A stretch of DNA of 64,000 nt from Methanoregula boonei 6A8 (GTDB taxonomy: Archaea > Halobacteriota > Methanomicrobia > Methanomicrobiales > Methanospirillaceae): NCBI RefSeq assembly GCF_000017625.1, contig NC_009712.1, positions 2,046,001-2,110,000 of the forward strand, given 5' to 3'. Under the pieces are notes generated by a model that saw only the letters and a program-made list of their open reading frames with translations, did no database searches and was not told the DNA's origin. Of this stretch, positions 12,520-38,477 are shown piece by piece. The translations under genes were made by a program, and so were the position numbers. The first letter of the stretch is position 1; each line of letters begins with the position of its first letter.

Positions 12520-14088
<1,569 letters not shown>

Positions 14089-16811: not shown

Positions 16812-18170
16812 TCAGAGCGGCCCGGTGAATTTTGTAATAATGTCTTCCATGAGCACGATGCCGCCACGGTACCCGGCATACGAGTGGTCGATAATCATCC
16901 GGTCGTTTATCGGGAACGAGACACTCAGGTGCAGCGCATCGTTAAACTCATCGGTAATGTACTTTTCAAGCGAGCTTGCGAGCAGGACTAAAAAACTCCT
17001 GCCCTTTAACAGCTGCCGGATCTTGTGCGTGTCCGACTCAAAGAAGATCTCGGGTTTCACCACGCAGTCGATGTGCTCATAAAGCTCGCGCAGGATCTCC
17101 GGGCGCTTTTCTTCCGGAGGATTATCCGTGATAATGGTAATATCCGGCAGGTACCCAACCTCGTTTGCGATATATTTCGTGATGCCGATTGCCGTAGCGC
17201 TGTCGCCGACGACTGCGGTGTACGAGTGTGGCATCCCGATAATCAGGGCATCTCCGAAATACTCCACGTTACGGTATGCCCTGCGCTCTTCAGCTGCGAC
17301 AACCTCCTTTACTTTTTTCTCCGGGATGCCAAGTTTTTCTGCCACGATGCCAAGCAGGGCCGTTGTCTGCTGGGGACCAACAGGTACGCTCGGGAAGGTG
17401 ACGTACGGCGTCCCAAACTTCTCCTCAAGCCTTTCTGCTATGCTGTGGCCAAGCCAGGGGTTAAGAACGAGGTTTAACTCGGCAGCCGGGATCCGTTTTA
17501 ATTTTTCCGGGCCGTCAAACTCGGTAAAGATCGTGTTTACCTCAACACCGATCTTGGCAAAGGTGTTTTTGAGTATCTCCAGATCCCCTTTCCAGAACAC
17601 GTGCTGGAATGGTACGACCCCGAGAATGTTGATGGTGCGCTTCTTCTTTTTTATGGGCACCAGGTACTGGTCGATCACGGCATTTAAGAATAATTCGTAC
17701 CCCTTGTACGTATTCCCGGAAAATCCCGGCGCGTTCACGTAAATGATGGGTATCCGGTTCTTCGTCTCCTCTTTGAATTCCCTGACCACGGATTCTACAT
17801 CGTCCCCGATAAGTGACGGTACGCAGCCGGTTATTACCACGAACAGGCTGCCATCCATCAGTTCAGTTGTAGATCTGATGAGTTTTCGCAGCCGGTCCTC
17901 TCCACCGAAGATAACATGCTGCTCCACCAGGGAAGTACAGGGTGTGCCGGTGCCGCCCTGCACACCCGGTGCGCTCTCGCCCGAGGTGTAGAACTGGCCG
18001 AAGAGCTGGGCGACCCCGCAGCCCCCTCCGGAATGCAGGACAGGTACCGCTCCATACACACCCAGCGTCGATGCATAGGCACCGGCAAGCGAACACGAAT
18101 ACCGGGGTGCCTCCTGGATATCATGGATATCGTCGCCTGATGATTCATTTTCAATGCCCGTTTCCGCCAT
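16812..18170 (-). CDS. Nitrogenase-like beta (K) subunit, copy 1
   Basis: NifK-type partner of the D subunit encoded just upstream (15-bp gap). 452 residues. It keeps P-cluster-type cysteines in PRYSCSLAGAY, GGGCGVAQLFGQF and ITGCVPSLIGDD, the NifK arrangement, plus a GTPCTSLVEQHVIFGG segment also found in the other two copies. LGVVPFQHVFWKGDLE is another shared block. Shorter than NifK (about 520) because the N-terminal extension is missing. Similarity to copies 2 and 3 is high throughout. Likely forms a D2K2 heterotetramer holding the interface Fe-S cluster; substrate unknown, methylthio-alkane reductase-type chemistry proposed. Confidence 0.85.
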   Translation of the reverse strand: MAETGIENESSGDDIHDIQEAPRYSCSLAGAYASTLGVYGAVPVLHSGGGCGVAQLFGQFYTSGESAPGVQGGTGTPCTSLVEQHVIFGGEDRLRKLIRSTTELMDGSLFVVITGCVPSLIGDDVESVVREFKEETKNRIPIIYVNAPGFSGNTYKGYELFLNAVIDQYLVPIKKKKRTINILGVVPFQHVFWKGDLEILKNTFAKIGVEVNTIFTEFDGPEKLKRIPAAELNLVLNPWLGHSIAERLEEKFGTPYVTFPSVPVGPQQTTALLGIVAEKLGIPEKKVKEVVAAEERRAYRNVEYFGDALIIGMPHSYTAVVGDSATAIGITKYIANEVGYLPDITIITDNPPEEKRPEILRELYEHIDCVVKPEIFFESDTHKIRQLLKGRSFLVLLASSLEKYITDEFNDALHLSVSFPINDRMIIDHSYAGYRGGIVLMEDIITKFTGPL

Positions 18171-18185
18171 TTTGCTCCTCCCTCT

Positions 18186-19724
18186 TTAGACAGCGTCCTT
18201 TTCGAGGTAGTAAAGCGGGTTGGGCTGCCTGAAGTACCAGTCCTTGTACCCGTACTGGGTCTTTTCGAGCATAGTTTTTTGCCAAGAGATACTTTTCATC
18301 CCCTGGAGCAGGAAGCTGCCATAGGCCACGGCTCCCGCATATGCGGTCTGCTGGCTCCACTTGAGATTATCGCACCGCACTGCATGGGTACGGGTAGCGC
18401 CTTTGTTCCGCTTGTAGGCACTTCCCTGGAACGGGCAGGTCAGCGTAATATCCGGGTTGAGCATTCTTGTGATATGAGCCTGTTCTGCAGCCTGGAAGGT
18501 ATTGACCAGGATGTTGAAATCCCCGACCTGGTCAACGACTTTTTCAAGGTCTTCCAGGATCAGGTTGTCATAATCCTGGGACAGGGCTGCTGATGACTTA
18601 ATGCCCAGTTCATCGAAGTACGGCAGTTGGGATAAGAGCCGGCCCTGGCCAAGGGCACCAAGCATCTCAATCTTCTTGCCGTTGCCCTTGAAGTTTTGGA
18701 GTTCTTTTCGGATAGCATCCATGCGGGGACCCCATTTCCTGTGTTCCTCTTCGATGACCGTCTCGGCCTCCCGTTCTTTTCCGGTGTACTCCGCGATCTT
18801 ACGGAGCCATTCGTCCGTATTCTGAAAACCTACCGGAGACGGGTACATGAAATAGGGTACGCCGTATTCCTGCTCCAGGCCCCGGGAGATATAGTCCGTA
18901 TAGGATGCACAGAGGGGAGCTGTTACCGCCGCCTCGGAGAGATCTTCGAGTTGCTGCACGCTTGCAAACTCCGGGACAAAATTCGGCCGCAGTCCCATTC
19001 TTTTTAAAATGCCGGTCATCTCCCTGCGATCCTGCCAGGTGTAGGAGAGCATGCTTGCGATATTGATTAAGTCATCCTGTTTCTTTTCAGGCTTTTTGAC
19101 CAGGTACTTTAATACGCCGTGCCAGAATGCATCGTAACCGGTTTGTACGAGTCTCGACCGGATGCCTTCGCAGTGGACCGGTACAATCTTTGCCTTGATG
19201 TGAGGTTGCATAGCGCTGACAGCGCCTTCAATGTCTTCTCCAATAATACCGGATGCACAGGAAGTGAGCACAAAGATTGCCCGGGGCTTATACCGCTCTT
19301 CGGCCACTCGTATGGCTTTTTTGAGTTTGTCACCGGCACCGTAGACAATGTCCTTCTCGGTAATTCCCGTTGTCAGCCAGTGGAGGTCAAAGGGAGGCCT
19401 GCCATCTGCTGCGGGTATATTGCGGAAGAGTTCCCTGTACCCAAGAGCTGACGCCGAGCAACCTACCGGCGCATGGAAAATGAGTACGGCATCCCGTATT
19501 GTGCTGATACGGATGGCAAGGTAAAAATTGAGGGCACACCCTGCTGATTGCTGGAATTTTCGCTCGCTCAATTTGAGATTGCCGGCTTTTGCATCTTTAA
19601 TTAACTGGGTAACCGGGCCATAGTACACGTTGATACCGTTGGCCCGATCCTCCCGGTTGGGGCAGGTCTTCTCTTCAAGATTTAGTTTTTTATCGCAGAT
19701 GTGGACGTCATTTTTTGATTGCAT
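18186..19724 (-). CDS. Nitrogenase-like alpha (D) subunit, copy 1
   Basis: NifD-type catalytic subunit, 512 residues. P-cluster-type cysteines are in SAGCALNFYL (C63), HAPVGCSASALGYRE (C89) and LTSCASGIIGEDIEG (C156). A cysteine in TAPLCASYTDYISRGLEQEY aligns with the cofactor-binding Cys275 of NifD, and a histidine in TRTHAVR with His442, so a metal cofactor site appears intact. CfbD of F430 synthesis and BchN would not pair with such a K subunit. First gene of the minus-strand operon D1-K1(-aminotransferase), driven by the two-box promoter at 19843-19908. Function as methylthio-alkane reductase-like enzyme is inferred. Confidence 0.85.
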   Translation of the reverse strand: MQSKNDVHICDKKLNLEEKTCPNREDRANGINVYYGPVTQLIKDAKAGNLKLSERKFQQSAGCALNFYLAIRISTIRDAVLIFHAPVGCSASALGYRELFRNIPAADGRPPFDLHWLTTGITEKDIVYGAGDKLKKAIRVAEERYKPRAIFVLTSCASGIIGEDIEGAVSAMQPHIKAKIVPVHCEGIRSRLVQTGYDAFWHGVLKYLVKKPEKKQDDLINIASMLSYTWQDRREMTGILKRMGLRPNFVPEFASVQQLEDLSEAAVTAPLCASYTDYISRGLEQEYGVPYFMYPSPVGFQNTDEWLRKIAEYTGKEREAETVIEEEHRKWGPRMDAIRKELQNFKGNGKKIEMLGALGQGRLLSQLPYFDELGIKSSAALSQDYDNLILEDLEKVVDQVGDFNILVNTFQAAEQAHITRMLNPDITLTCPFQGSAYKRNKGATRTHAVRCDNLKWSQQTAYAGAVAYGSFLLQGMKSISWQKTMLEKTQYGYKDWYFRQPNPLYYLEKDAV

Positions 19725-22691: not shown

Positions 22692-23180
22692 TTATTCCGG
22701 GTTCCTGGTATCGGTGAGGGGCGGAGGCAGTGATCGTTTACCCTGTGCGCCCAGCCGTTTTTTGAAGCCCCGGTACGAATCGGGGGCGTACCCGAGCGAG
22801 CGGTAGAACGGGACTGCATCGGTCCGCTCAAGCTCAGATACAAAAATGATGTAATTGCAGTTGCGCGAGACCGCGTATGACTCGATCTCGCGTATCAGTG
22901 CAGAACCTATCCCCTGCTGACGGAATTCGCGGTCAACGATCACGTCCTCAATGACCAAAAACGGGCGGCATTCACCATAAAGCTCTTCGCAGATGATCCC
23001 CATGAGAGACCCGGCTATCTCATCGTCCACCTCAGCGACAAGAAAAACGTAATCCGGATCATTCCTGAGCCGCGCAAAGGTTTCCTGCATCCGCACAAGG
23101 GAAGACTCCTCGTTCCAGAACTGCATGTACAGCCGGGCCAGGGCAGGAAGATCTTCTTTTTGCAGTCGTCTGATGATCAT
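22692..23180 (-). CDS. GNAT-family N-acetyltransferase
   Basis: 162-residue GNAT enzyme from ATG 23180 (MIIRRLQKEDLPAL). The acetyl-CoA motif A is VDREFRQQGIGSALI (Q/R-x-x-G-x-G/A) and the closing motif B is PFYRSLGYAPDSYRGF. It lies 64 bp downstream of the radical SAM gene on the same strand and may be cotranscribed with it. The acyl acceptor cannot be told. Confidence 0.8.
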   Translation of the reverse strand: MIIRRLQKEDLPALARLYMQFWNEESSLVRMQETFARLRNDPDYVFLVAEVDDEIAGSLMGIICEELYGECRPFLVIEDVIVDREFRQQGIGSALIREIESYAVSRNCNYIIFVSELERTDAVPFYRSLGYAPDSYRGFKKRLGAQGKRSLPPPLTDTRNPE

Positions 23181-23244
23181 GGGTTTGTATAAAGGACGTG
23201 ACAGGGTGCTCTGAAACGGGCGGAGAAGAACCACCGGTGTGCGG

Positions 23245-24378
23245 TCACACAACTCCTTTTTCCCGGAGTGCATCGTGCAACAGGGAGTTCCCATCGCAGA
23301 GGTAGCAGTGGTTCCGGGTGCCTGCAGGGACCTTATGCTCACGGACAATCTCCGCCGCCTCGCGGTTAGTCTGTGCGTACCATTCTGCAAATGGGGCGCG
23401 ATGGCCGTACAATTTCGAGCCGGGGTTCGGGGACCAGACAAACGGGATTACGTTTGCTCCCAGTTCCGAGATAGCATTCACGCCGGCAAGGAAGTTCTCT
23501 TTTGGTTCCAGGCCCAGAACAAAGATCGTATACACATTGCCTTCACCGAAGACCTCCACTGCTTTTTTTATGTTTTCCACAAACTCATCATGCGATGTGC
23601 CCGCAGCCTTCCCCGGGCAGATTGCCTCGTAGTATTTTTTGTCCCAGACTTCCATGGCAAAGCAGAGTGACCCAATCCCGGTCTCGTAGAACTTCTGGAT
23701 CGCTTCTCCTTTGGCCGGCGAGGGAAGAAGGGTTCCTGGCACCGAATCAAAGCCCGTGTGCTCCCGGATCGAGGATAGGATCTCCGAAACGATCTCAATC
23801 TCCCGCTTCAGGGAGATGCACCCACCGGTGAGGTTGACGTGGTTGGTGTCGCCTTCCGCCCATGCAGCTTTCACAACTTCTCCCACTTCAACCGGGTCCT
23901 TTCTTCTCATGACCGAGTTGTACACATCTGAGGTGGAGACCAGGTTGCAGAAGGCGCACTGTTGTTTTTTGGCAAAATGGGAGCAGTAGTTCTGGTAGCA
24001 GAAAAAGAGGCAGTCCTGCCCGCCGAGCTGCCCGATCTTTATCATGTCGTTTCCCTTTGTGGTCTTTTCTGTGTAATACCGGGGCCGCCGCAGCCATTTC
24101 ACCTCGCAGATCCGCTGCTCGTTATGGTGCAGGTGCAGCCTGCCATCCTCGGGCACCACGTGGTACGGTGAACGCGAATTCTTGCGGTACTGCACCACGG
24201 TCCCGTCGGGGAGGGTGAAGTCATCGGGGAGTTTCTGCTCGGTGTGGTTTTCAAAATCCCAGCCAAAGAGACCGTGGTTCTGCTCTTTGTACCGGGTCCC
24301 GACCTCTGCAACGCTTGCAGGATCTGACCGTATCCCCTCGGTGACAAGGGCCGCCTTTAGTAACAGGTAATCTTCCAT
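23245..24378 (-). CDS. Radical SAM protein with spaced cluster motif
   Basis: 377 residues from ATG 24378 (MEDYLLLKAALV), chosen because GGAG precedes it by 8 nt. The SAM-cluster cysteines are probably in YCSHFAKKQQCAFCN, a C-x8-C-x2-C arrangement rather than the classical C-x3-C-x2-C, with two more cysteines just before (CLFFCYQNYC). HVNLTGGCISLKREIE is the SAM-binding GGE-like segment, and HCYLCDGNSLLHDAL near the end may bind a further cluster. It lies between two nitrogenase-like D/K pairs and downstream of the AnfO-like gene on the same strand, so cofactor assembly or substrate handling is plausible. It does not look like canonical NifB, which has the C-x3-C-x2-C motif. Confidence 0.75.
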   Translation of the reverse strand: MEDYLLLKAALVTEGIRSDPASVAEVGTRYKEQNHGLFGWDFENHTEQKLPDDFTLPDGTVVQYRKNSRSPYHVVPEDGRLHLHHNEQRICEVKWLRRPRYYTEKTTKGNDMIKIGQLGGQDCLFFCYQNYCSHFAKKQQCAFCNLVSTSDVYNSVMRRKDPVEVGEVVKAAWAEGDTNHVNLTGGCISLKREIEIVSEILSSIREHTGFDSVPGTLLPSPAKGEAIQKFYETGIGSLCFAMEVWDKKYYEAICPGKAAGTSHDEFVENIKKAVEVFGEGNVYTIFVLGLEPKENFLAGVNAISELGANVIPFVWSPNPGSKLYGHRAPFAEWYAQTNREAAEIVREHKVPAGTRNHCYLCDGNSLLHDALREKGVV

Positions 24379-24396
24379 GGGATGCTCTCCGGATCG

Positions 24397-24437
24397 TATC
24401 AGAATATCTGGGAAATGACGGGCATAATATTCTGATA
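24397..24437. promoter_or_regulatory. 10-bp inverted repeat just upstream of the radical SAM gene
   Basis: TATCAGAATA (24397-24406) and TATTCTGATA (24428-24437) are perfect inverted arms with a 21-nt spacer, 19 bp before the start codon at 24378. It could form a leader hairpin over the ribosome site or be an operator. The 320-bp gap up to 24698 otherwise shows no feature I can support. Confidence 0.4.
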
Positions 24438-24698
24438 TCTGGGCAATCCTTGCCCGTAGTCTCCGTCTTTTGCACACATACTTCCGCTCAAACCCAACAT
24501 TTTGCCGGGTCTTTGTAGTCAGTACATTGCAGAGGGATGCAGGCAGGAATGCCCGGGTTCGATACAGAAAAAAAGATCGGGGTTCCCCCGGAGTTCACGA
24601 TCAGAATGGTGCAACAATGACGCTTGGGAATATCCTCAAGCAGGATGCAACCCGGTCCTGGTAATTACGTAACAACTCCACAAATGGAATGAACCACC

Positions 24699-25340
24699 TT
24701 ATTTTGACTTTTTCAGCACCACCCTGACCTCGTGGGGAGCATGGTGTCTGGTCTCAATCATAAGCCCAAGGAAATCTGCCTCGACTCCAATCCAGGGTGG
24801 CAGATGTTCGCAGAATAGTTCAAGCTCGGTAAAACGGGAACTGCGGATAAACTGCTGGAGCACCTGCTTGCTGCTCACACCGGAACGTTTTCTCTGGATC
24901 TCTGTAATCGACACCGTGAATTTACCGGGTGCCGTTTCAAGCGGGACGGGTATACCGGCGTTACCGGAATCCGGCCGGGGCTGGGGACACGCTTCCTGTT
25001 TGTCGTTATCTTTTGCTTCCAGGCAGACGGAGTCGAGGAATTCTTCCGGTTGACCTGCAACTTCCCACACATGGCAGCGGGCTCGTGCAAGTTCGGAGTA
25101 AACAGCTCCGTTTGCCGACTGTGCAACAAAGGTACGGCAATCCCCAAGAAAGGTAACAAGCTCCGCTACTTTCCGGTGCAGTCCCTGCAATCCTTTTCCG
25201 GGTTCAAGAGCGAAAGGAAACGTCCTTTGGCTCTGCCACACCCCATGGCTGCGCTGAAAAATAACGATTGTCCCCGGACCGGTGAGGGGAACAGTCCGGC
25301 CATTCTCCCCGATAATTACCGCAATCTCTGAAATGCCCAT
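24699..25340 (-). CDS. AnfO-like nitrogenase accessory protein
   Basis: 213 residues. The N-terminal half (IAVIIGENGRTVPLTGPGTI, then QRTFPFALEPGKGLQGLHRKV, LGDCRTFVA and VWEVAGQPEEFLDSV) and the C-terminal half (PGKFTVSITEIQ, GVSSKQVLQQFI, FTELELFCEHLPPWI) match the two blocks of AnfO, the protein encoded with Fe-only nitrogenase. In this copy the two halves are joined by a low-complexity linker (about 115-135). It lies 91 bp downstream of K2 on the same strand. AnfO is thought to assist Fe-only nitrogenase function, so its presence supports a real metallocluster enzyme here. Assignment rests on recalled family pattern, not a search. Confidence 0.75.
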   Translation of the reverse strand: MGISEIAVIIGENGRTVPLTGPGTIVIFQRSHGVWQSQRTFPFALEPGKGLQGLHRKVAELVTFLGDCRTFVAQSANGAVYSELARARCHVWEVAGQPEEFLDSVCLEAKDNDKQEACPQPRPDSGNAGIPVPLETAPGKFTVSITEIQRKRSGVSSKQVLQQFIRSSRFTELELFCEHLPPWIGVEADFLGLMIETRHHAPHEVRVVLKKSK

Positions 25341-25431
25341 GATACCCTCAGAAGATCATAAGATTCCACGTTGTATCCGTACCGTCATGCATAAAAAAGA
25401 TCGTTATGGGGAGGGGAACTGCTTTCCCTCC

Positions 25432-26784
25432 TCACAGGGGCCCGGCAAATTTGCTCATGAAGTCCTCTGCAAGGAAGAGCCCTCCTTTATACCCGGCATA
25501 GGAGTGCTCCAGGATGAGCCGGTCAAATGAGGGGAATGCCACGGTCAGGGGGATTGCCCCAAATTCGGCAAGGGAGATCGGAGATTCCAGGGAACTCGCA
25601 AACAGGAAGAGTGAATTCCGGTTTTTCAGATTCTGCCTGATACGGTAGGAATCCACCTCAAAGACGATCTCCGGTTTCACCGGTGTTTCGAGGGTCTCGA
25701 GCAGTTCCCTGCGGATGAGATCGCGCTTATCCTCATGGGGATCGTCTGCGATCTGCACGATCTCCGGGAGATACCCGAGTTCGTTTGCCAGGAATTTCGT
25801 GATACTGATTGCGGTACTGCTGTCTGCAACGACCGAGAAATACGCATGGGGCCGGACAAGAGTGAGGATATCCCCCAGGTACTCGGTGAACCGGTATGCC
25901 CGCTTCTCCCGCTCTTCAATAACCTTCTCGACGGTCTTTGCCGGTACCCTTAGTTTCTTACCAACAACACGGAGGAATTCCGAGCTCTGCTTGGGACCGA
26001 TGGGGACCCCGGGGAATGCAATGAACGGGGTTTTGAACTTCTCCTTGAGTTTCTCTGCGGTTTCGTGCCCTACCCAGGGCGAGAGCACAATATTGTATTC
26101 CGCCGCGGGAATGCTTTTGAGGGCTTCAACGGAATCGAACCGGGTAAAGATGATATTGGGTTTCAGGCCGATTGATTCAAGGAGTTCCCTGATAACGTCC
26201 AGATCTCCTTTCCAGAACAGGTGCTGGTACGGCACTATGCCAAAGATATTGACCTGCCCTTTCACTTTTGTCTGGGGTGTGAGGAACTGGTCAATGAGCG
26301 ATTCAAAAAACAGCTCGTATCCCTGGTAGGAATTTCCTGAGAATCCGGCAGCCTTTATAGAGATGATTGGCACCTTATCACGGAATTCCTTTACCACGGA
26401 TTCAGTGTCATCTCCAATGAGTGAAGGGATACATCCCGAGATTACCGCGTAAAACTGCCCGTTTACGAGTTCAACACTGGATTCTATCAGGTTCCGGAGT
26501 TTCTTCTCCCCACCGAAGATGACATGCTCCTCAATAAGGGAGGAGCAGGGTGTGGAAGTCCCTCCTACCGGGCCTCCGGCATTCTGCCCCCCGCCATAGA
26601 ACTGACCGAAAAGCTGGCCAATTCCGCAACCCGCTCCTGAATGAAGGATCGGAACCGCCCCATACAGACCAACCGCGGTTGAGTACGCTCCCGCAAGGGC
26701 GCAGGAGAACCGCGGAGCTTCCAGGGCATCAGATGCCGGGAGATCCACAGCGGAGGATACTTTTGCTTGTACTGCTTTTGTCAT
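25432..26784 (-). CDS. Nitrogenase-like beta (K) subunit, copy 2
   Basis: 450 residues from ATG 26784 (MTKAVQAKVSS), which overlaps the stop of D2 (ATGA), so translation is coupled. P-cluster-type cysteines are in PRFSCALAGAY, GAGCGIGQLFGQF and ISGCIPSLIGDD; STPCSSLIEEHVIFGG is conserved with copies 1 and 3. NIFGIVPYQHLFWKGDLD matches the block shared by all copies. Copy 2 is the only pair with an AnfO-like gene directly downstream. Likely a D2K2 partner; substrate unknown. Confidence 0.85.
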   Translation of the reverse strand: MTKAVQAKVSSAVDLPASDALEAPRFSCALAGAYSTAVGLYGAVPILHSGAGCGIGQLFGQFYGGGQNAGGPVGGTSTPCSSLIEEHVIFGGEKKLRNLIESSVELVNGQFYAVISGCIPSLIGDDTESVVKEFRDKVPIISIKAAGFSGNSYQGYELFFESLIDQFLTPQTKVKGQVNIFGIVPYQHLFWKGDLDVIRELLESIGLKPNIIFTRFDSVEALKSIPAAEYNIVLSPWVGHETAEKLKEKFKTPFIAFPGVPIGPKQSSEFLRVVGKKLRVPAKTVEKVIEEREKRAYRFTEYLGDILTLVRPHAYFSVVADSSTAISITKFLANELGYLPEIVQIADDPHEDKRDLIRRELLETLETPVKPEIVFEVDSYRIRQNLKNRNSLFLFASSLESPISLAEFGAIPLTVAFPSFDRLILEHSYAGYKGGLFLAEDFMSKFAGPL

Positions 26785-28328
26785 GGCTCTCCATCCTCTT
26801 TTATCAGGTAGTGGAGGGGATCGGGCTGACGGTACCACCAGTCCTTGTAGGTGTTCTCTGTTTTTTCGAGCATGGTCCGCTGGAACGCACTGCTTTTGAG
26901 CGACTGAAGCAGGAAATTCCCAAATGCGATCGCACCTGTGTACCCGCTTTGCCGGCTCCAGGGATCCGGATCGCCCCGGAGTGCGTGAATCCTGGTCATA
27001 CCTTTATCCCGCTTGAACGCTCCTCCCTGGAACGGACAGGTGAGAGCAATATCCGGATCAAGTTTTCTTGTTATGTGTGACTGTTCCGCTGCCTGGAACG
27101 TGTTGACCAGGATATCAAAGTCTCCTACATTTTTGATCAGGTTTTCGAGATCCCCGAGAATCAGGTTATCAAAATCCTGGCACATGGCTGCCGAAGATTT
27201 GAGTCCCAGTTCATCGAAGTACGGGAGCTGGGCAAGAAGCCGCCCCTGGCCGAGTGCGCCAAGCACTTCCACTTTCTTACCGTCGGCTTTAACTTTTGCA
27301 AATTCTTCCTGAATTGCCTTAAGCTTGGGAATCCAGACTTTATGTTCATCCTCGATGAGTTTCTCAATCTCTTTTGATTTCCCGGTATGTTTTCCAATCT
27401 CCCGCAGCCAGGCGTCCGTGTTTGCAATACCCATCGGGGAAGGATAGAGGAAATAGGGGACACCGTATTCCTGTTCAAGTCCCCGGGAGAGGTAATCAGT
27501 GTAGGTCGGGCACAAGGGTGCCGTTACCGCAGCTTCACTGAGCTGTTCCAGCTGCTCGACAGTTGCAAATTCCGGAATAAAATTGACCCGGAGCCCGACT
27601 TTTTCGAGCAATCTCTTGATCTCAAGCCTGTCCTGCCAGGTATACGAAAGCATGCTTGCAACATTGACCAGATCCTTCTGCTTCTTCTGCGGTTTTTTCA
27701 CAAGGTACTTCAGGACCCCATGCCAGAACGCATCGTACCCGGTCTGTACCAGCCGGGATCGCGAACCTTCGCAGTGGACCGGAACTATCCTGGCTTTCAC
27801 TTTTGGCTGAACCTCTGCAACCACTCCTTCAATATCCTCTCCGATGATCCCGGAGGTGCATGAAGTCATAACGAATATGGCCTTGGGATTGTAGCGGCGT
27901 TGTGCCTCAAATATGGCACTCTTGAGTTTTTCGGTTGCGCCATAGACAACATCATTTTCCCGGAGGTTGGTGGTTATCCAGTGGAGATCATATTCTGCCG
28001 GTCGCCCGAGTTCAACCGGAACACCGCGGTACAGTTCCCGGTACCCAAGAGCGGATGAGGAACATCCAACCGGTGCATGGTAAACTACCGCTGCATCGCG
28101 TATCGTTCCCACCCGTACCGTGAGATAGAAGTTGAGCACGCAGCCTGAGGTCTGCTGGAATTTTCGTTCCCGACGCGTAAGGGTTCCTTCACGCGCCTCC
28201 TTTACCAGATCGCTGGCCTTTCCGTACCAGACATTAATCCCATTTGCACGCTGTTCACGGTTCGGGCACGTTGCTTCCTCAAGATTGATCTTGGAATCGA
28301 TAATATGTGGTGATTTATTTTCAGTCAT
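26781..28328 (-). CDS. Nitrogenase-like alpha (D) subunit, copy 2
   Basis: 515 residues from ATG 28328 (MTENKSPHIIDSK), preceded by GAGGTG. The longer frame upstream crosses the promoter and was rejected. Cysteines: TSGCVLNFYL (C63), HAPVGCSSSALGYRE (C89), MTSCTSGIIGEDIEG. Cofactor-type Cys in TAPLCPTYTDYLSRGLEQEY and His in TRIHALRGDP are retained. The protein is closer to copy 3 than to copy 1 in several blocks (RRYNPKAIFV, APLCPTYTDYL). First gene of the minus-strand unit D2-K2-anfO-like, under the two-box promoter at 28469-28531. Confidence 0.85.
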   Translation of the reverse strand: MTENKSPHIIDSKINLEEATCPNREQRANGINVWYGKASDLVKEAREGTLTRRERKFQQTSGCVLNFYLTVRVGTIRDAAVVYHAPVGCSSSALGYRELYRGVPVELGRPAEYDLHWITTNLRENDVVYGATEKLKSAIFEAQRRYNPKAIFVMTSCTSGIIGEDIEGVVAEVQPKVKARIVPVHCEGSRSRLVQTGYDAFWHGVLKYLVKKPQKKQKDLVNVASMLSYTWQDRLEIKRLLEKVGLRVNFIPEFATVEQLEQLSEAAVTAPLCPTYTDYLSRGLEQEYGVPYFLYPSPMGIANTDAWLREIGKHTGKSKEIEKLIEDEHKVWIPKLKAIQEEFAKVKADGKKVEVLGALGQGRLLAQLPYFDELGLKSSAAMCQDFDNLILGDLENLIKNVGDFDILVNTFQAAEQSHITRKLDPDIALTCPFQGGAFKRDKGMTRIHALRGDPDPWSRQSGYTGAIAFGNFLLQSLKSSAFQRTMLEKTENTYKDWWYRQPDPLHYLIKEDGEP

Positions 28329-31492: not shown

Positions 31493-32467
31493 ATGGCAAA
31501 ACAGAGAAACATTGCGATATATGGAAAAGGCGGCATCGGAAAGTCCACCACCTCGTCCAATATCAGTGCCGCACTCTCGGAACTTGGCCTCAAAGTGATG
31601 CAGATCGGATGTGATCCCAAGAGCGATTCAACAAACACGCTCCGGGGAGGCCGGTTCATCCCGACAGTTCTGGATTCCCTGAGAAGCGGAAAGAGGGTTG
31701 AGACAAGTGACATTATCCACGAAGGATTCAATGGTGTCCTCTGCGTTGAAGCCGGGGGCCCTGAGCCCGGCGTCGGCTGTGCCGGCCGCGGCATCATCAC
31801 CGCAATTGAACTCCTCCGCCAGCGGAAGGTCTTTGAAGAGTTCAAACCGGATGTCGTTATTTACGATGTCCTTGGGGATGTGGTCTGCGGGGGATTTGGT
31901 ATACCCATCCGTGAAGGCGTGGCCGAACAGGTCTACACCGTGAGTTCGTCCGACTTCATGGCGATTTATGCGGCAAACAATCTCTTCAAAGGCATCAAGA
32001 AGTATGCGAACAGCGGGGGAGCATTGTTCTCCGGTATCATAGCAAATTCCACAAACCTGCCTGTACAGCGCGAGATTGTCGAGGACTTTGCCGCTTCCAC
32101 AAAGACAACTATTGCAGAATATGTTCCCCGTTCGCTTACCGTAACCAAAAGTGAGCTCCAGGGAAAGACTGTGATAGAGGCGGCTCCGGAGTCGGAGCAG
32201 GCCGAGGTCTACCGTGTCCTTGCAAAGAAGATCCTCAGTAATCAGGACCGGTATGTCCCGGCTCCGCTGGATACCGACCAGCTCAAAGACTGGGCCGAGA
32301 GCTGGTCTGACAAACTGCTCGAGCAGCGCGACTCCCCGACCCATGTGAAGTGTGAACTCGAATGCATTGTCCCCGGCGCAGAGCCAATTATTGCAAAACC
32401 CCGATCCCAGCGATCTCCTGCAGTAAAAGCGGCCACTCCCCGGAGAACTGCCAAAGCAAAAGGATGA
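31493..32467 (+). CDS. NifH-like ATP-dependent reductase (Fe protein)
   Basis: Homodimeric Fe protein that would pass electrons with ATP hydrolysis to the D/K subunits. P-loop [14 protein letters not shown] (about residue 10-23), switch DPKSDST, the [4Fe-4S] cysteines C96 (GVGCAGRG) and C132 (DVVCGGFG), and the arginine of CAGRG that is the ADP-ribosylation site in NifH. At 324 residues it is longer than NifH (about 290) because of a lysine/arginine-rich tail (from about 290). It is the only H gene in the window, so it must serve three D/K pairs or others lie elsewhere. The first gene of H-D3-K3, with 4 bp to D3. Confidence 0.92.
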
Positions 32468-32471
32468 TAGT

Positions 32472-34022
32472 ATGACAAAAAACCAGGCACCTCATCTTGT
32501 CAATGAACAGATCAATCTTGCTGATGCAACCTGCCCGAACCGCGAGGAGCGGGCACACGGGATCAATGTGTACTATGGAAAAGCATCTGAACTCCTGCGT
32601 GATGCCAGGAGTGGAAACCTCAAACAGGTTGACCGCAAATTCCAGCAGACCTCAGGCTGCACACTGAACTTCTACCTGACAGTCCGGGTCAACACCATCC
32701 GGGATGCTGCCATTGTTTACCATGCGCCGGTCGGTTGCTCTTGCCCGTCTCTCGGGTACCGTGAGCTGTTCCAGCACATCCCGACAAGCATGGGCATGCC
32801 CGAGAATTACGATCTTCACTGGCTGACCACCAGCATGAACGAGAAGGATATGGTCTATGGGTCTACGGACAAGCTCAAGGCTGCAATTCTTGAGGCACAG
32901 CGCCGTTACGATCCCAAGGCGATCTTCGTCCTGACTTCCTGTGCATCGGGAATCATCGGTGAGGATATAGAAGGGGCAGTTAACGAGGTCCAGCCAAAGG
33001 TACGTGGACGGATCGTTCCCATCCATTGCGAGGGTATACGATCGCGGCTGGTGCAGACCGGGTACGATGCGTTCTGGCATGCCGTCCTGAAGTACCTTGT
33101 GAAAAAACCGCAGAAGAAACAGAAAGACCTGGTCAATGTTGCAAGCATGCTTTCGTATACCTGGCAGGACAGGCTTGAGATCAAGAGACTCCTTGGGAAG
33201 ATGGGGCTGCGGGTAAACTATGTGCCGGAGTTCGCGTCCGTGGAACAGTTCGAGCAGCTCTCGGAAGCCGCGGTGACGGCACCATTGTGCCCTACCTACA
33301 CCGATTACCTCTCCCGGGGACTCGAACAGGAATACGGTGTGCCGTTCTTCATGTACCCGTCACCGATGGGATTTTCCGGTACCGACGGCTGGCTTCGGGA
33401 GATAGGAAAATACACGGGTAAGGAGAAAGAGGCCGAAGTGGTCATTGCAGAAGAGCACAGGAAATGGGACCCGAAACTCGCGGCGATCCAGGAAGAGTTC
33501 CTTCATATCAAGCCAAACGGGGAGAAAGTGGAAGTGCTCGGCGCACTCGGCCAGGGGCGGCTGCTTGCACAGGTGCCGTACTTCGATGAACTCGGGGTCA
33601 AATCATCAGCCGCGATGTGCCAGGACTATGATAACCTCATCATTGACGAGTTGGAAAAAGTGATCGCGCAGGTCGGAGACTTCGATATCCTGGTCAACAC
33701 GTTCCAGGCTGCCGAGCAGACCCATATCAACCGGATTCTCGACCCGGACATGACGCTTACGTGCCCGTTCCAAGGAAGCGCCTACAAGCGCCTGAAAGGC
33801 GTTACCCGTGTACACGCACTCCGGGGTGACCCGAACCTCTGGGCCCAGCAGAGCGCCTATGCCGGTGCTGTTGCGTACGGGAATTTCCTGCTCCAGGCAT
33901 TCAAGAGCAGATCCCTCCAACAGACCATGAAAGAGAAGACTGCGGACAACTACAAGGCCTGGTACTTTGAACAGGACAATCCGCTCTACTTCAGGGACAA
34001 CGACGAACCGGTGGTCTCGTGA
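32472..34022 (+). CDS. Nitrogenase-like alpha (D) subunit, copy 3
   Basis: 516 residues. Cysteines at 63, 89 and 157 (TSGCTLNFYL, HAPVGCSCPSLGYRE, LTSCASGIIGEDIEG) correspond in spacing to Cys62, 88 and 154 of Azotobacter NifD. C273 (APLCPTYTDYLSRG) and H448 (TRVHALRGDP) correspond to cofactor ligands Cys275 and His442. This makes an active-site metallocluster likely. The product overlaps K3 by 4 bp. The combination H-D-K, no NifEN and a sulfur setting suits the methylthio-alkane reductase family (MarHDK of Rhodospirillum rubrum), which cleaves C-S bonds of thioethers to methanethiol; the exact substrate is inference. Confidence 0.87.
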   Translation: MTKNQAPHLVNEQINLADATCPNREERAHGINVYYGKASELLRDARSGNLKQVDRKFQQTSGCTLNFYLTVRVNTIRDAAIVYHAPVGCSCPSLGYRELFQHIPTSMGMPENYDLHWLTTSMNEKDMVYGSTDKLKAAILEAQRRYDPKAIFVLTSCASGIIGEDIEGAVNEVQPKVRGRIVPIHCEGIRSRLVQTGYDAFWHAVLKYLVKKPQKKQKDLVNVASMLSYTWQDRLEIKRLLGKMGLRVNYVPEFASVEQFEQLSEAAVTAPLCPTYTDYLSRGLEQEYGVPFFMYPSPMGFSGTDGWLREIGKYTGKEKEAEVVIAEEHRKWDPKLAAIQEEFLHIKPNGEKVEVLGALGQGRLLAQVPYFDELGVKSSAAMCQDYDNLIIDELEKVIAQVGDFDILVNTFQAAEQTHINRILDPDMTLTCPFQGSAYKRLKGVTRVHALRGDPNLWAQQSAYAGAVAYGNFLLQAFKSRSLQQTMKEKTADNYKAWYFEQDNPLYFRDNDEPVVS

Positions 34023-35365
34023 CAGAAGCAGAAACCGTACCTCAGGATATTGATACCCGGTACCCCGAGGTTGTGGAGGCACCGCGGTGGACCTGCTCAC
34101 TTGGGGGAGCATACATTACGAGTACCGGGGTCTACGGAGTAGTCCCCATCCTCCATGCCGGGGCAGGCTGTGGCATTGCTCAACTGCTTGGCGTGTACTA
34201 TGCAGCGGGTGAGAATGCTGCCGGCGGGCAGGGCGGGACGAGCACTCCCTGTTCATGCCTTATCGAGAAGCACGTGATCTTCGGCGGGGAGGACAAACTC
34301 CGGAAGCTGATCGATTCAACGATCCAGCTGATGGAGGGCGATCTCTACGTGGTAATCTCCGGGTGTGTCCCGGCGCTGATCGGAGACGACGTTGACTCCG
34401 TAGTCAGGGAGTTCAAAGGGAAAGCAGATGTCATCTTTGTTAATACCGCCGGGTTCAAGGGCAACACGTTCGATGGCTACGAGGAGTTCCTAGGTGCGGT
34501 CATTGACCAGTTCCTGGAACCAAGGAAAAAGAAGAAGAAGGTTGTCAACATCCTCGGGGTCGTTCCCTTCCAGCACGTCTTCTGGAAAGGCGACCTCAAT
34601 GTCGTCAAGAACCTGTTGGCAAAGATCGGCGTGGAGGCAAATATCCTCTTCACCCAGTTCGATGGCGTCAAAAAACTCAAAGAGATTCCGGAAGCGGAAC
34701 TCAACATCGTCCTTTCCACCTGGAACGGGCACAAGGCTGCCGGAAAACTCAAAGAGAGATTCGGCCAGGAATACCTGACGTTCCCAAGCCCGCCAATCGG
34801 GCCGAAGCAGACGTCAGAATTCCTCCGCTCCGTGGCAAAGAAACTCAGGATCCCCAAAAAGGATGTGGAACGGGTCATCGCAGAGGAAGAGCGGCACGTA
34901 TACCGGTTCACCGAGTACCTGACCGATGCAATCATCATAGGCCTTCCCCATCCGTACGCAGCCTTTGTCGGGGATTCCAACACCGTAATTGGCATTGCAA
35001 AATACCTTGCAAACGAGGTCGGGTACCTTCCCGAGGTGGTGCAGATTACCGATGAACCCCCCGAGGAAGCCCGGGAGTGGATCCGGCGGGAGCTGACCGA
35101 GAACATCGAGTCCACGATCAAACCGGATATCCTCTTCGAGAAAGACACGTTCCGGATCCGTGAGAACCTGCGGGACAGGAGTTTCCAAGTCATGCTCGCC
35201 ACCTCGCTTGAAAAGTGGCCTGCGGCAAAGGAATTCGGCGTTGCCCACCTGAGTGTTGGTTTCCCGATGTACGATCGCGTTATCGTTGACCGGAACTATG
35301 CCGGGTACAGAGGCGGGCTTGCTCTTCTGGAAGACCTCATCGCCAAATATGTCGGCCCTCTTTAA
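34019..35365 (+). CDS. Nitrogenase-like beta (K) subunit, copy 3
   Basis: 448 residues, start GTG 34019 overlapping the D3 stop (GTGA). Cysteines C26 (PRWTCSLGGAY), C51 (GAGCGIAQLL) and C116 (ISGCVPALIGDD) fit the NifK P-cluster pattern; the C26-C51 spacing of 25 equals that of NifK Cys70-Cys95. TPCSCLIEKHVIFGG has an extra cysteine compared with copies 1 and 2. The NILGVVPFQHVFWKGDL block is shared. A T8 tract follows the stop. Confidence 0.87.
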   Translation: MTEAETVPQDIDTRYPEVVEAPRWTCSLGGAYITSTGVYGVVPILHAGAGCGIAQLLGVYYAAGENAAGGQGGTSTPCSCLIEKHVIFGGEDKLRKLIDSTIQLMEGDLYVVISGCVPALIGDDVDSVVREFKGKADVIFVNTAGFKGNTFDGYEEFLGAVIDQFLEPRKKKKKVVNILGVVPFQHVFWKGDLNVVKNLLAKIGVEANILFTQFDGVKKLKEIPEAELNIVLSTWNGHKAAGKLKERFGQEYLTFPSPPIGPKQTSEFLRSVAKKLRIPKKDVERVIAEEERHVYRFTEYLTDAIIIGLPHPYAAFVGDSNTVIGIAKYLANEVGYLPEVVQITDEPPEEAREWIRRELTENIESTIKPDILFEKDTFRIRENLRDRSFQVMLATSLEKWPAAKEFGVAHLSVGFPMYDRVIVDRNYAGYRGGLALLEDLIAKYVGPL

Positions 35366-35611: not shown

Positions 35612-36499
35612 ATGTCGAAGATCGAAGCAGTGGACGTAACAAAATCGTTCACCTCCCGGGGGACCGGAAAAACCGGATCCAACGGGAACCATACGGAAAC
35701 ACAGGCACTGGGGGGGGTAAACCTTACTATCAGTACAGGTGAATTTCACGTGATTCTGGGGCCCAGCGGGTGCGGCAAATCGACGTTTCTTGATATCGTC
35801 GCCGGGCTGTCAACACCTACTTCCGGTGAGATCCGAATCGATGGCAAGCCGGTCATCGGTCCGGGTACGGATCGTGCCGTTGTCTTTCAGCAGTATGCCC
35901 TGCTCCCGTGGAGGACTGCTCTTGGCAACGTGGAGTTCGGCCTTGAGAATATCGAATCCGACAAGAAAGAGCGTGTGCGGATAGCCACGAACTTCCTCTC
36001 CCTTGTCGGCCTGAGCGGTTTCCAGGACCACTATCCCCACGAACTGAGCGGGGGCATGAAACAGCGGGTCGCCATTGCGCGGGCACTTGCCCTTCATCCC
36101 GATATCCTGCTCATGGACGAGCCGTTTGCCGCGGTGGATGCCCAGACCCGGGAGATCCTCCAGCGCGACCTCCTGAGAATCGCTATTGAAACCCAAAAAA
36201 CCGTCCTGTTCATCACCCATAGTATCGATGAGGCGGTCTTCCTCGCAGACAGGGTGTCCGTGATGACAGCACGCCCGGGGAGAATCAAACAGACCGTTGA
36301 AGTTCCCCTGACCCGTGCCGAGCGGCTTGACGAGGATGTAAAAGTTTCAGATGCCTATGTAAAGACCAGACACTATCTCTGGACGCTTCTCAAGGAAGAG
36401 GTAATCCGGTCTCAGGACGTATGCGGCAAATGCTCTGTGGAGACCTGCACGTTCGGCCACCGGGTCACCGCGGGAGGTGCCGATGACCACGGAAACTGA
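35612..36499 (+). CDS. Nitrate/sulfonate/taurine-type ABC transporter ATPase with Cys-rich tail
   Basis: 295-residue ATPase of the SsuB/TauB/NrtD family. Walker A GPSGCGKSTFLD, Q-loop VVFQQYALLPWRTALGN, signature ELSGGMKQRVAIARALA, Walker B DILLMDEPFAAVD and switch His FITHSIDEAV are present. An unusual C-terminal extension ends with VCGKCSVETCTFGH (C-x2-C-x4-C-x3-H), a possible metal or cluster site. Operon: ATPase, permease (overlap), binding protein. The two-box promoter shared with the nitrogenase-like genes suggests the cargo is a substrate of those enzymes, such as a sulfonate or thioether. Confidence 0.9.
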   Translation: MSKIEAVDVTKSFTSRGTGKTGSNGNHTETQALGGVNLTISTGEFHVILGPSGCGKSTFLDIVAGLSTPTSGEIRIDGKPVIGPGTDRAVVFQQYALLPWRTALGNVEFGLENIESDKKERVRIATNFLSLVGLSGFQDHYPHELSGGMKQRVAIARALALHPDILLMDEPFAAVDAQTREILQRDLLRIAIETQKTVLFITHSIDEAVFLADRVSVMTARPGRIKQTVEVPLTRAERLDEDVKVSDAYVKTRHYLWTLLKEEVIRSQDVCGKCSVETCTFGHRVTAGGADDHGN

Positions 36500-37319
36500 T
36501 GCAGGTGCACCTGTCCGGCAGAACTGGATCGGAAACGGGTGTTCCTCACTGGGAAACTGCTCCCGTAAATTCATCCACGTAACGGGTGCCATCTTCGTTT
36601 TCCTGCTTATCTGGCAACTGGCGCCCTATTTCGGGTTGATCAATCCTATCATTATCCCCGTGCCGACAACGATCCTCCAGAAGATGATCCAGCTGACGCT
36701 CTCGGGAGAACTCCTCACGAATATCGCAGTCAGCCTGGGCCGGGTACTGGTCGGGTTTTTTATCGCCCTTGCGGTGGCACTCCCGCTTGGATTCCTGCTG
36801 GGGGGCTGGTTCAAGTCCTTTGAAACTGCCGTAAACCCCCTACTCCAGGTACTGGGCCAGGCAAACCCGTTCACGCTCTTCCCGGTCTTCATCACCCTTC
36901 TCGGAATCGGTGAGCTCTCCAAGATCAGTATCATCTTCTGGGTCTGCCAGTGGCCGGTGCTCTTCAACACGGTCTCCGGTATCAAGAATGTGGACCCGGC
37001 GATCGTGAAGATGGCCCGGTCCATGGGGATCGGAAAGTGGCAGATGTTCAGGAAGGTGCTCCTTCCGGCAGCAATGCCCTCGGTCTTCACCGGGATCCGC
37101 ATGAGCGCAGTTTTCGCATTCTTCATGCTGATCGGCGCAGAGATGATTGGCGCAAGCTCCGGGCTCGGGTACATGATCCTCCAGGCACAGGCTACCTTTC
37201 AGATGCCCAAGATGTGGGTCGGGATCGTAACAGTTGCCTTCCTGGGTATCCTGTTCAACTGGATACTCCTCCAGATCGAGAAGAAATTCTCCGGCTGGAA
37301 AGAAGAACTTGTAATGTAA
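36483..37319 (+). CDS. ABC transporter permease, nitrate/sulfonate/taurine type
   Basis: 278 residues from ATG 36483, which has GGGAGG five bases before it; an in-frame GTG at 36477 is the alternative. Six hydrophobic segments, starting FIHVTGAIFVFLLIWQLAPYF; the coupling loop is NVDPAIVKMARSMGIGKWQMFRKVLLPAAMPSVFTGIR, split here as MARSMGIGKWQMF and LLPAAMPSVFTG, the EAA motif of this family. It overlaps the ATPase by 17 bp. Confidence 0.9.
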   Translation: MTTETDAGAPVRQNWIGNGCSSLGNCSRKFIHVTGAIFVFLLIWQLAPYFGLINPIIIPVPTTILQKMIQLTLSGELLTNIAVSLGRVLVGFFIALAVALPLGFLLGGWFKSFETAVNPLLQVLGQANPFTLFPVFITLLGIGELSKISIIFWVCQWPVLFNTVSGIKNVDPAIVKMARSMGIGKWQMFRKVLLPAAMPSVFTGIRMSAVFAFFMLIGAEMIGASSGLGYMILQAQATFQMPKMWVGIVTVAFLGILFNWILLQIEKKFSGWKEELVM

Positions 37320-37337
37320 CTTTAAGGTGATTATCAC

Positions 37338-38477
37338 ATGACTCCAAAATTTCACAACAGGAAAAAAGAGCTTGCCGTAATAGCGGCAGTATCCCTCTTC
37401 ATCCTGCTTTTCCTCATTATTGCAGGATGCACACAGAATAGCAGCAGCACGAACTCCGCAGGATCCTCCGGTGCAGTAGCCTCGGTTTCATCCGGGGTAA
37501 ATTCTTCCTTCTACACGATCCGGGCAAACGTGAATAAGGACTGCTCGGGAACTCCCTGGTATGTCGGCGTGATGAAAGGCTATTTTGTTAGCGGCGGCAT
37601 TAATTTCGTTGACGCCGGTGCCCTTGACTGGTCTCTCCAGCCGGCAGCTCTCGTCTCCGGACAGACCGACGTGGTGGATGAACACCCCAACACGCTCATC
37701 GATCTTAAGCTTGCAGGAGCCAATGTCACTGGTGTCGCACTCAGCGGGCAGGAACCCCCTGAGGGCGATATAAGTGAATACCACATGCAATGGCTGGTTC
37801 TCAACAGCAGTCCCTACTATACGATTCAGGATCTCGTTGCAAACGGTCACAAGCCAAAGATTGCCGTCGGTGCACTGGGTATCTGTGCGGACCTGGAGAA
37901 TAACGCATGGTTCCGTGCGAATAACCTATCAAACACGAGTTTCCAGTACGTCATAATGCCCGATCCGCAGCAGGAAGCAGCTCTCCGTTCCGGACAGATC
38001 GATGTTGCAGTCCTCCACCCGCCATTCTATACAGCGGCTGAAAAACATGGCGGTGTCCGGGTCATTACGACTAGTTATGATGCATTCGGACCGCAGGCGG
38101 GTACAACCCTGCTTGTCTTCAGAGATGCTGACATCCAGGAACACCCGGATGATGTAAGAGCGTTCATTAAAGCGTACAAGAATGCGGAGAGATGGTCTGA
38201 CAACCACCTGACAGAATCCGGTATACTGACTGCCGGTGTCATAGGGCTTTCCAATGCAACTCCTCACTACTACAGTCAATCGGGTGCAATTACGGATGAC
38301 GAGATCCAGCCGTGGATAGACGCAATGGTTGCAGACGGTGACATTGCGCCGGGACAGTTCAAACCCTCGGATCTGTATACGACTGAGTTTAGCGATACGT
38401 GGGTAAATGAAACCGCGGTCAATGGACCGGATCCGGTTGATCCCTTCCCGAGCCTGGAAAAGAGCACATACGACTGA
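37338..38477 (+). CDS. ABC transporter substrate-binding lipoprotein
   Basis: 379 residues. N-terminal signal VIAAVSLFILLFLIIAGCTQ ends in a lipobox with C31, so it is anchored outside the membrane. The mature part is an NMT1/THI5/SsuA-like periplasmic-binding fold: GTPWYVGVMKGYF, VSGQTDVVDEHPNTLIDL, ALRSGQIDVAVLHPPF. The motif order fits the nitrate/sulfonate/taurine family. The ligand is not readable; co-regulation argues for an organosulfur compound (inference). Confidence 0.88.
   Translation: MTPKFHNRKKELAVIAAVSLFILLFLIIAGCTQNSSSTNSAGSSGAVASVSSGVNSSFYTIRANVNKDCSGTPWYVGVMKGYFVSGGINFVDAGALDWSLQPAALVSGQTDVVDEHPNTLIDLKLAGANVTGVALSGQEPPEGDISEYHMQWLVLNSSPYYTIQDLVANGHKPKIAVGALGICADLENNAWFRANNLSNTSFQYVIMPDPQQEAALRSGQIDVAVLHPPFYTAAEKHGGVRVITTSYDAFGPQAGTTLLVFRDADIQEHPDDVRAFIKAYKNAERWSDNHLTESGILTAGVIGLSNATPHYYSQSGAITDDEIQPWIDAMVADGDIAPGQFKPSDLYTTEFSDTWVNETAVNGPDPVDPFPSLEKSTYD

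Follow-up and report, generated by a model that had tools for sequence, protein, structure and literature searches.

AnfO of Azotobacter vinelandii has two domains with a flexible linker between them. The NifX-like N-domain binds the immature FeFe protein, and the C-domain, which carries the motif C-x-H-x-P-P-W, captures FeMo- and FeV-cofactor (PMC9310841; PMC11938142). The histidine of this motif, His203, is essential (PMC11938142). Proteins of this family normally control which metal cluster is taken up by nitrogenase. Nitrogenase-like enzymes of sulfur metabolism include methylthio-alkane reductase (MarHDK) in Rhodospirillum rubrum (PMC12552129) and isethionate reductase (IsrBHDK) in Rhodobacter capsulatus (PMC11423573). 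The MarD cluster ligands are Cys270 and His429 (PMC12552129), and the methanethiol that Mar enzymes set free is used to make methionine (PMC12552129; PMC11423573). The radical SAM partners of such enzymes, IsrB and MarB, are drawn from unrelated lineages (PMC11423573).

The window, that is, the whole stretch of 64,000 nucleotides analyzed here, corresponds to C1:2046001-2110000 of a single-contig archaeal genome of 2,542,943 bases. Three nitrogenase-like D-K pairs, all resembling methylthio-alkane reductase (Mar-like), were found in it: K1-D1 (16812..19724, minus strand), D2-K2 (D2, 26781..28328; K2, 25432..26838, with a likely start about 26784; both on the minus strand), and H3-D3-K3 (31493..35365, plus strand). 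K1-D1 has no H gene of its own, and the H3 gene is the sole Fe-protein gene for all three pairs. The whole genome contains 13 matches to PF00148; beside the Mar-like pairs, these are a nifDKEN set, a further nitrogenase-like pair, and a single match that is weak and partial. An extra nitrogenase-like H-D-K set, unlike either the Nif or the Mar-like pairs, is located at C1:2155649-2158576 (L071), about 47 kb past the window.

D1 and D3 are sisters (98/96), and D2 stands apart, close to copies from other methanogens. Among solved structures, D2 is closer to the MarD chain than to NifD: the nearest entries are 9fmg and 9d9u (E 1.7e-74), and the next is a NifD-type chain (5.5e-31). The former were taken as MarD because residue 429 of 9fmg is a histidine, as named in the MarD paper (PMC12552129). 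All three D proteins keep the three P-cluster cysteines of NifD together with its cofactor cysteine, Cys275, and K1, K2, and K3 each keep three P-cluster cysteines. Thus, D2-K2 resembles MarHDK in these residues and in the presence of met genes nearby. In contrast to MarHDK, D2-K2 has no adjoining marB and has an AnfO gene next door. Moreover, although the equivalent of MarD Cys270 is kept in D2, the position of MarD His429 falls within TCPFQGG and has no histidine. The same position is not a histidine in D1 or D3 either, and all three proteins have a histidine aligned with NifD His442. The alignments suggest that cluster anchoring in the three Mar-like D proteins may be more nitrogenase-like than in bacterial MarD. 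IsrD is also different, having neither the cofactor cysteine nor the histidine, both of which are found in D2 (PMC11423573).

The Mar-like pairs are located in an island of sulfur metabolism. Around them, the window encodes CBS/CysK, cystathionine gamma-synthase, CysRS, and MetY (O-acetylhomoserine sulfhydrylase; 12685..14088, plus strand), as well as methionine gamma-lyase-like and methionine-aminotransferase-like proteins. Directly after K3 lie genes (35612-38477) for a taurine/sulfonate/nitrate-type ABC importer whose binding protein is SsuA-like; this transporter may bring in substrate of the Mar-like enzymes. Loci orthologous to D2-K2, with D proteins 73-81% identical to D2, were found in 13 further genomes, seven of them in the class and six elsewhere in the phylum (one of these six with a broken D). 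At L215 (genome G505), the D2-type D is broken by several stops, and its K and a nearby metY relative are intact.

The gene at 24699..25340 (minus strand) encodes a 213-aa protein. The initial annotation had recognized both conserved blocks of AnfO in it, and profile searches confirmed this: PF09582 (AnfO_nitrog) is matched with E 1.6e-60 over profile positions 1-188 of 190, with a score of 204 bits against a cut-off of 30.3. The NCBIfam equivalog for AnfO of Fe-only nitrogenase, TIGR02940, gave 109.8 bits, under its cut-off of 129.15. The structure model (pLDDT 90) consists of an N-domain (1-117) and a C-domain (134-213), both confident, connected by a linker (118-133) in which pLDDT is under 50 at residues 118-127. 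Sequence search for solved relatives of the protein returned none that were meaningful. By structure, the nearest fold to the N-domain is the NafY core (1p90; Z 11.1, rmsd 3.5, 110 aligned); NifX bound to NifEN is also similar (9ian_F; Z 10.2, rmsd 5.3, 122 aligned). The shared N-domain fold makes handling of NifB-co or FeMo-co and of apo-component 1 an expected function of AnfO by analogy with NafY and NifX. Unlike these proteins, AnfO has no match to PF02579 and has an extra AnfO-type C-domain bearing the conserved histidine. The site is C177-x-H179-x-P-P-W, with the letters C-E-H-L-P-P-W; C177, H179, P181, and W183 are invariant across 32 relatives, and C177 and H179 are the counterparts of C201 and H203 in the Azotobacter protein. 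In total, the protein retains all 10 positions that are invariant in the family and 51 of the 60 that are strongly conserved. Divergence specific to the N-domain, such as retargeting to D2-K2 might leave, was sought, and the changes were found to be spread over both domains instead.

Thus, the window protein agrees with Azotobacter AnfO in its two domains, flexible linker, NifX-like N-domain, and C-domain motif; likewise, it accompanies a component-1 protein that would take a NifB-derived cluster (PMC9310841; PMC11938142). It differs in adjoining a Mar-like D-K pair and not anfHDGK, in descending from Mo-nitrogenase operons, and in its TIGR02940 score.

This descent is seen in both the gene neighbourhoods and the tree. 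AnfO was found in 39 of 232 genomes of the archaeal class Methanomicrobia. The surroundings of 39 AnfO genes of the class were read; 36 of these genes close a Mo-nitrogenase operon, preceded by nifN and the gene for a 2Fe-2S ferredoxin, and the three exceptions are the window copy, L063, and L072. In Bacillota, AnfO is located beside nifN, nifB, nifV, or the gene for the same 2Fe-2S ferredoxin in 23 of 27 loci, and a single locus adjoins anfK; NifB and NifV were assigned with a profile check at three of these loci and by reading the sequence at the rest. The window genome itself has two AnfO copies, the second one being C1:1152611, which follows nifDKEN and a 2Fe-2S ferredoxin gene in the nif locus (L070, C1:1146591-1153210). 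The two copies are 47% identical, and the best identity of the window copy to other nif-operon copies is 52%. In the tree, the window protein falls within the clade of nif-operon AnfO proteins of its own genus and family, on a long branch of 0.81, where the median for end branches is 0.12. The nif-operon proteins of Methanomicrobia and Bacillota are its direct kin and share all its invariant residues; unlike them, the window copy is outside the nif operon and on a long branch. No AnfD or AnfK was found among the 13 PF00148 matches of the genome. Acquisition from an Fe-only nitrogenase system was ruled out by the grouping of the copy with nif-operon AnfO of the same genus. Thus, the AnfO identity proposed initially holds, and the Fe-only nitrogenase origin gives way to a Mo-nif lineage.

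A search of the whole genome with PF02579 (NifX, Nitro_FeMo-Co) gave no match, while the same search finds the copies of other methanogens. Together with the nif-operon position, this indicates that AnfO seems to occupy the usual place of NifX. NifB is encoded once in the genome, at C1:632938. Elsewhere in the class, a second long-branch AnfO copy was found in genome G200 (L072:9078-9692), among genes for ABC transporters and binding proteins and far from nif and Mar-like genes. At seven loci of Methanosarcina-like genomes, AnfO is likewise located away from nif, and it repeatedly has near it the gene for a conserved 159-aa protein (MDGRGAERGPLQLDIG...), which no NCBIfam model matched.

Downstream of AnfO lies a gene for a radical SAM protein. 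Both genes are on the strand of D2-K2 and downstream of that pair, as had been stated. The gene was assigned to 23245..24378 (minus strand) within the longer open reading frame 23245-24477, since all relatives start at Met34 of this frame; its product has 377 aa. It is separated from AnfO by 320 bp, in which a terminator-like hairpin followed by T7 (24578..24590, minus strand) was found about 110 nt past the AnfO stop. The product matches PF04055 (E 1.2e-9) and the variant radical SAM family NF045502 (353.8 bits, cut-off 125); TIGR04043 (MSMEG_0568 family) gave 109 against a cut-off of 304. The C-x8-C-x2-C motif noted earlier was confirmed as invariant among 24 relatives, with a further cysteine five residues upstream, giving C127-x4-C132-x8-C141-x2-C144 when numbered from the conserved start. 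Also invariant in the family are C187, C254, and C358-x2-C361. Sequence search for solved relatives gave none that were meaningful. The model is a radical SAM barrel, for which lipoyl synthase is nearest and biotin synthase, HydE/HydG, MqnE, and NifB follow closely, all at Z 16-18; with the Z values nearly tied, the fold singles out no reaction. A NifB identity was ruled out by the lack of a TIGR01290 match, NifB of this genome being encoded elsewhere. The role of MarB or IsrB was also rejected, on the basis of gene neighbourhood. A gene downstream of it (22692..23441, minus strand; conserved part from near 23183) encodes a GNAT acetyltransferase by profile match, and no link of it to nitrogenase was found.

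When about 85,000 species genomes were scanned, 30 loci with this radical SAM family were found, in Bacillota, Bathyarchaeota, Omnitrophota, and others; one of them is a short fragment of the gene start on a second contig of a same-genus genome, near cysK, metB, and the CysRS gene (L118:935-1072). No D, K, H, or AnfO gene was found within up to 8 kb on each side at any of the 29 loci of relatives, and nitrogenase-family D/K proteins over cut-off are absent from 12 of the 15 host genomes tested. This is the outcome that the initial annotation had named as refuting an association with nitrogenase-like genes. In this respect the family differs from IsrB, encoded directly upstream of isrH; the Isr system resembles the window in being a nitrogenase-like sulfur-assimilation enzyme with a radical SAM gene nearby (PMC11423573).

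The neighbours of the family are instead methionine and cysteine genes or an Lrp-type regulator. Ten loci are in or beside metY-metX-metW-CBS/cysK-metB clusters. These clusters belong to very diverse bacteria, and seven cysteines of the family that lie outside the x8 pair region are invariant. Eight more loci, mostly in Clostridia, are located directly behind an Lrp/AsnC-type regulator gene in a two-gene unit. Within the 232 genomes of the class, the gene was found in only one other genome, of the same genus, where its product is 86% identical and the gene lies between metY and a permease gene; that permease is also encoded near the window gene. This relative (L069:1480-2589) has an in-frame stop. 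Thus, the family looks like a candidate step in methionine and cysteine metabolism of bacteria and archaea. As for the reaction, the neighbours and the lipoyl-synthase-like model would fit an auxiliary-cluster radical SAM step in the handling of methionine or cysteine sulfur, which is offered as a guess.

The link of the radical SAM gene to the Mar-like enzymes is probably metabolic only, both feeding sulfur amino acid synthesis within the sulfur-gene island. This is consistent with the sulfur genes of the window, with metY relatives near the Mar-like D-K genes in 6 of the 13 orthologous loci, and with radical SAM relatives inside metY-metX-metW-CBS-metB clusters. Two observations fit it less well: the window copy groups with the Lrp-linked copies of Clostridia, so that its closest bacterial relatives are outside met clusters, and no Rfam SAM riboswitch over thresholds was found upstream of the met clusters in nine loci. 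Beside the 13 orthologous D-K loci, no radical SAM gene of this family was found.

For AnfO, the best explanation is that the window gene is a diverged second copy of the gene that ends the organism's own Mo-nif operon, now located behind a Mar-like pair. In a diazotroph that makes FeMo-cofactor, such a copy is a credible cofactor-handling partner for D2-K2. The cluster of Mar enzymes is a bare [Fe8S9C] that lacks homocitrate, and such a cell therefore runs a real risk of inserting FeMo-cofactor there by mistake. The NifX/NafY-like N-domain would dock on cofactor-free D2-K2, while the C-domain would hold a cluster, presumably derived from NifB, through His179. In this way AnfO may bar NifEN-made FeMo-cofactor from D2-K2 as a gatekeeper; alternatively, it could act as a chaperone that passes the bare [Fe8S9C] cluster to D2-K2. 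The joint reading, in which the second AnfO copy has been co-opted to serve D2-K2 as gatekeeper or chaperone and the radical SAM gene stands apart, is preferred tentatively, its likelihood being a little short of even.

The location of the gene bears on this reading in both directions. AnfO follows K2 after 91 bp on the same strand. In this gap, a T6 tract (25393..25398, minus strand) may act as a partial termination signal of the archaeal kind, which makes it uncertain whether AnfO is transcribed together with D2-K2. AnfO was found beside the Mar-like pair in the window genome only and at none of the 13 orthologous loci (0 of 7 in the class, 0 of 6 elsewhere in the phylum), whose D-K pairs do without an adjacent AnfO. 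With AnfO present at one of 14 D2-K2-type loci, the functional link comes from a single genome, and conservation lends it no support. The adjacency in one genome, the T6 tract, the spread of divergence over both domains, and the long branch, which fits relaxed constraint as well, all speak against co-option.

The main rival reading is that the window copy still serves Mo-nitrogenase in NifB-co/FeMo-co trafficking and came to lie behind K2 by chance duplication or transfer. The nif operon already has an AnfO of its own, and the window copy is close behind K2, on the same strand and in a region of three Mar-like pairs; this reading is judged less likely than co-option, even though the nearest relatives are all last genes of Mo-nif operons, the cofactor-binding residues are unchanged, AnfO is absent from other Mar-like loci, and G200 too keeps a second AnfO far from nif and Mar-like genes. 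It is improbable that the copy, under relaxed constraint, survives only as a relic and does nothing of importance: its branch of 0.81 and singleton position would fit, but the 213-aa frame is intact, the invariant and most conserved positions are kept, and the two-domain model is confident. The initial annotation proposed that AnfO and the radical SAM protein form a maturation or cofactor-modifying module dedicated to the Mar-like enzyme. This was reasonable because isethionate reductase shows the recruitment of an unrelated radical SAM protein (PMC11423573), and it agrees with the IsrB and MarB precedents and the common strand. It is nevertheless very improbable given the neighbourhoods in the family, the 320-bp gap with its terminator-like element, and the same-genus relative, which lies between metY and a permease gene in a genome where no close Mar-like D was found, so that only the AnfO half of the proposal is retained.

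Under the preferred reading of AnfO as a co-opted partner of D2-K2, AnfO-type cofactor sorting would extend to a nitrogenase-like sulfur enzyme, a nif-derived AnfO guarding or loading the Mar-like [Fe8S9C] cluster in a cell that makes FeMo-cofactor and has no NifX; this extension is possible but rather doubtful. The locus pairs a sorting protein with a nitrogenase-like sulfur enzyme and thereby bears on the routing of clusters in cells with one NifB. A keyword search of the open-access literature gave no paper that puts AnfO in a Mo-nif operon or next to a Mar-like enzyme, although such a search does not prove that there is none. The survey made here places AnfO mainly in the Mo-nif operons of anaerobic archaea and of Bacillota. 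If this is true, both the name AnfO and the Fe-only nitrogenase model apply to a special case, and in these organisms AnfO may take the place of NifX/NafY.
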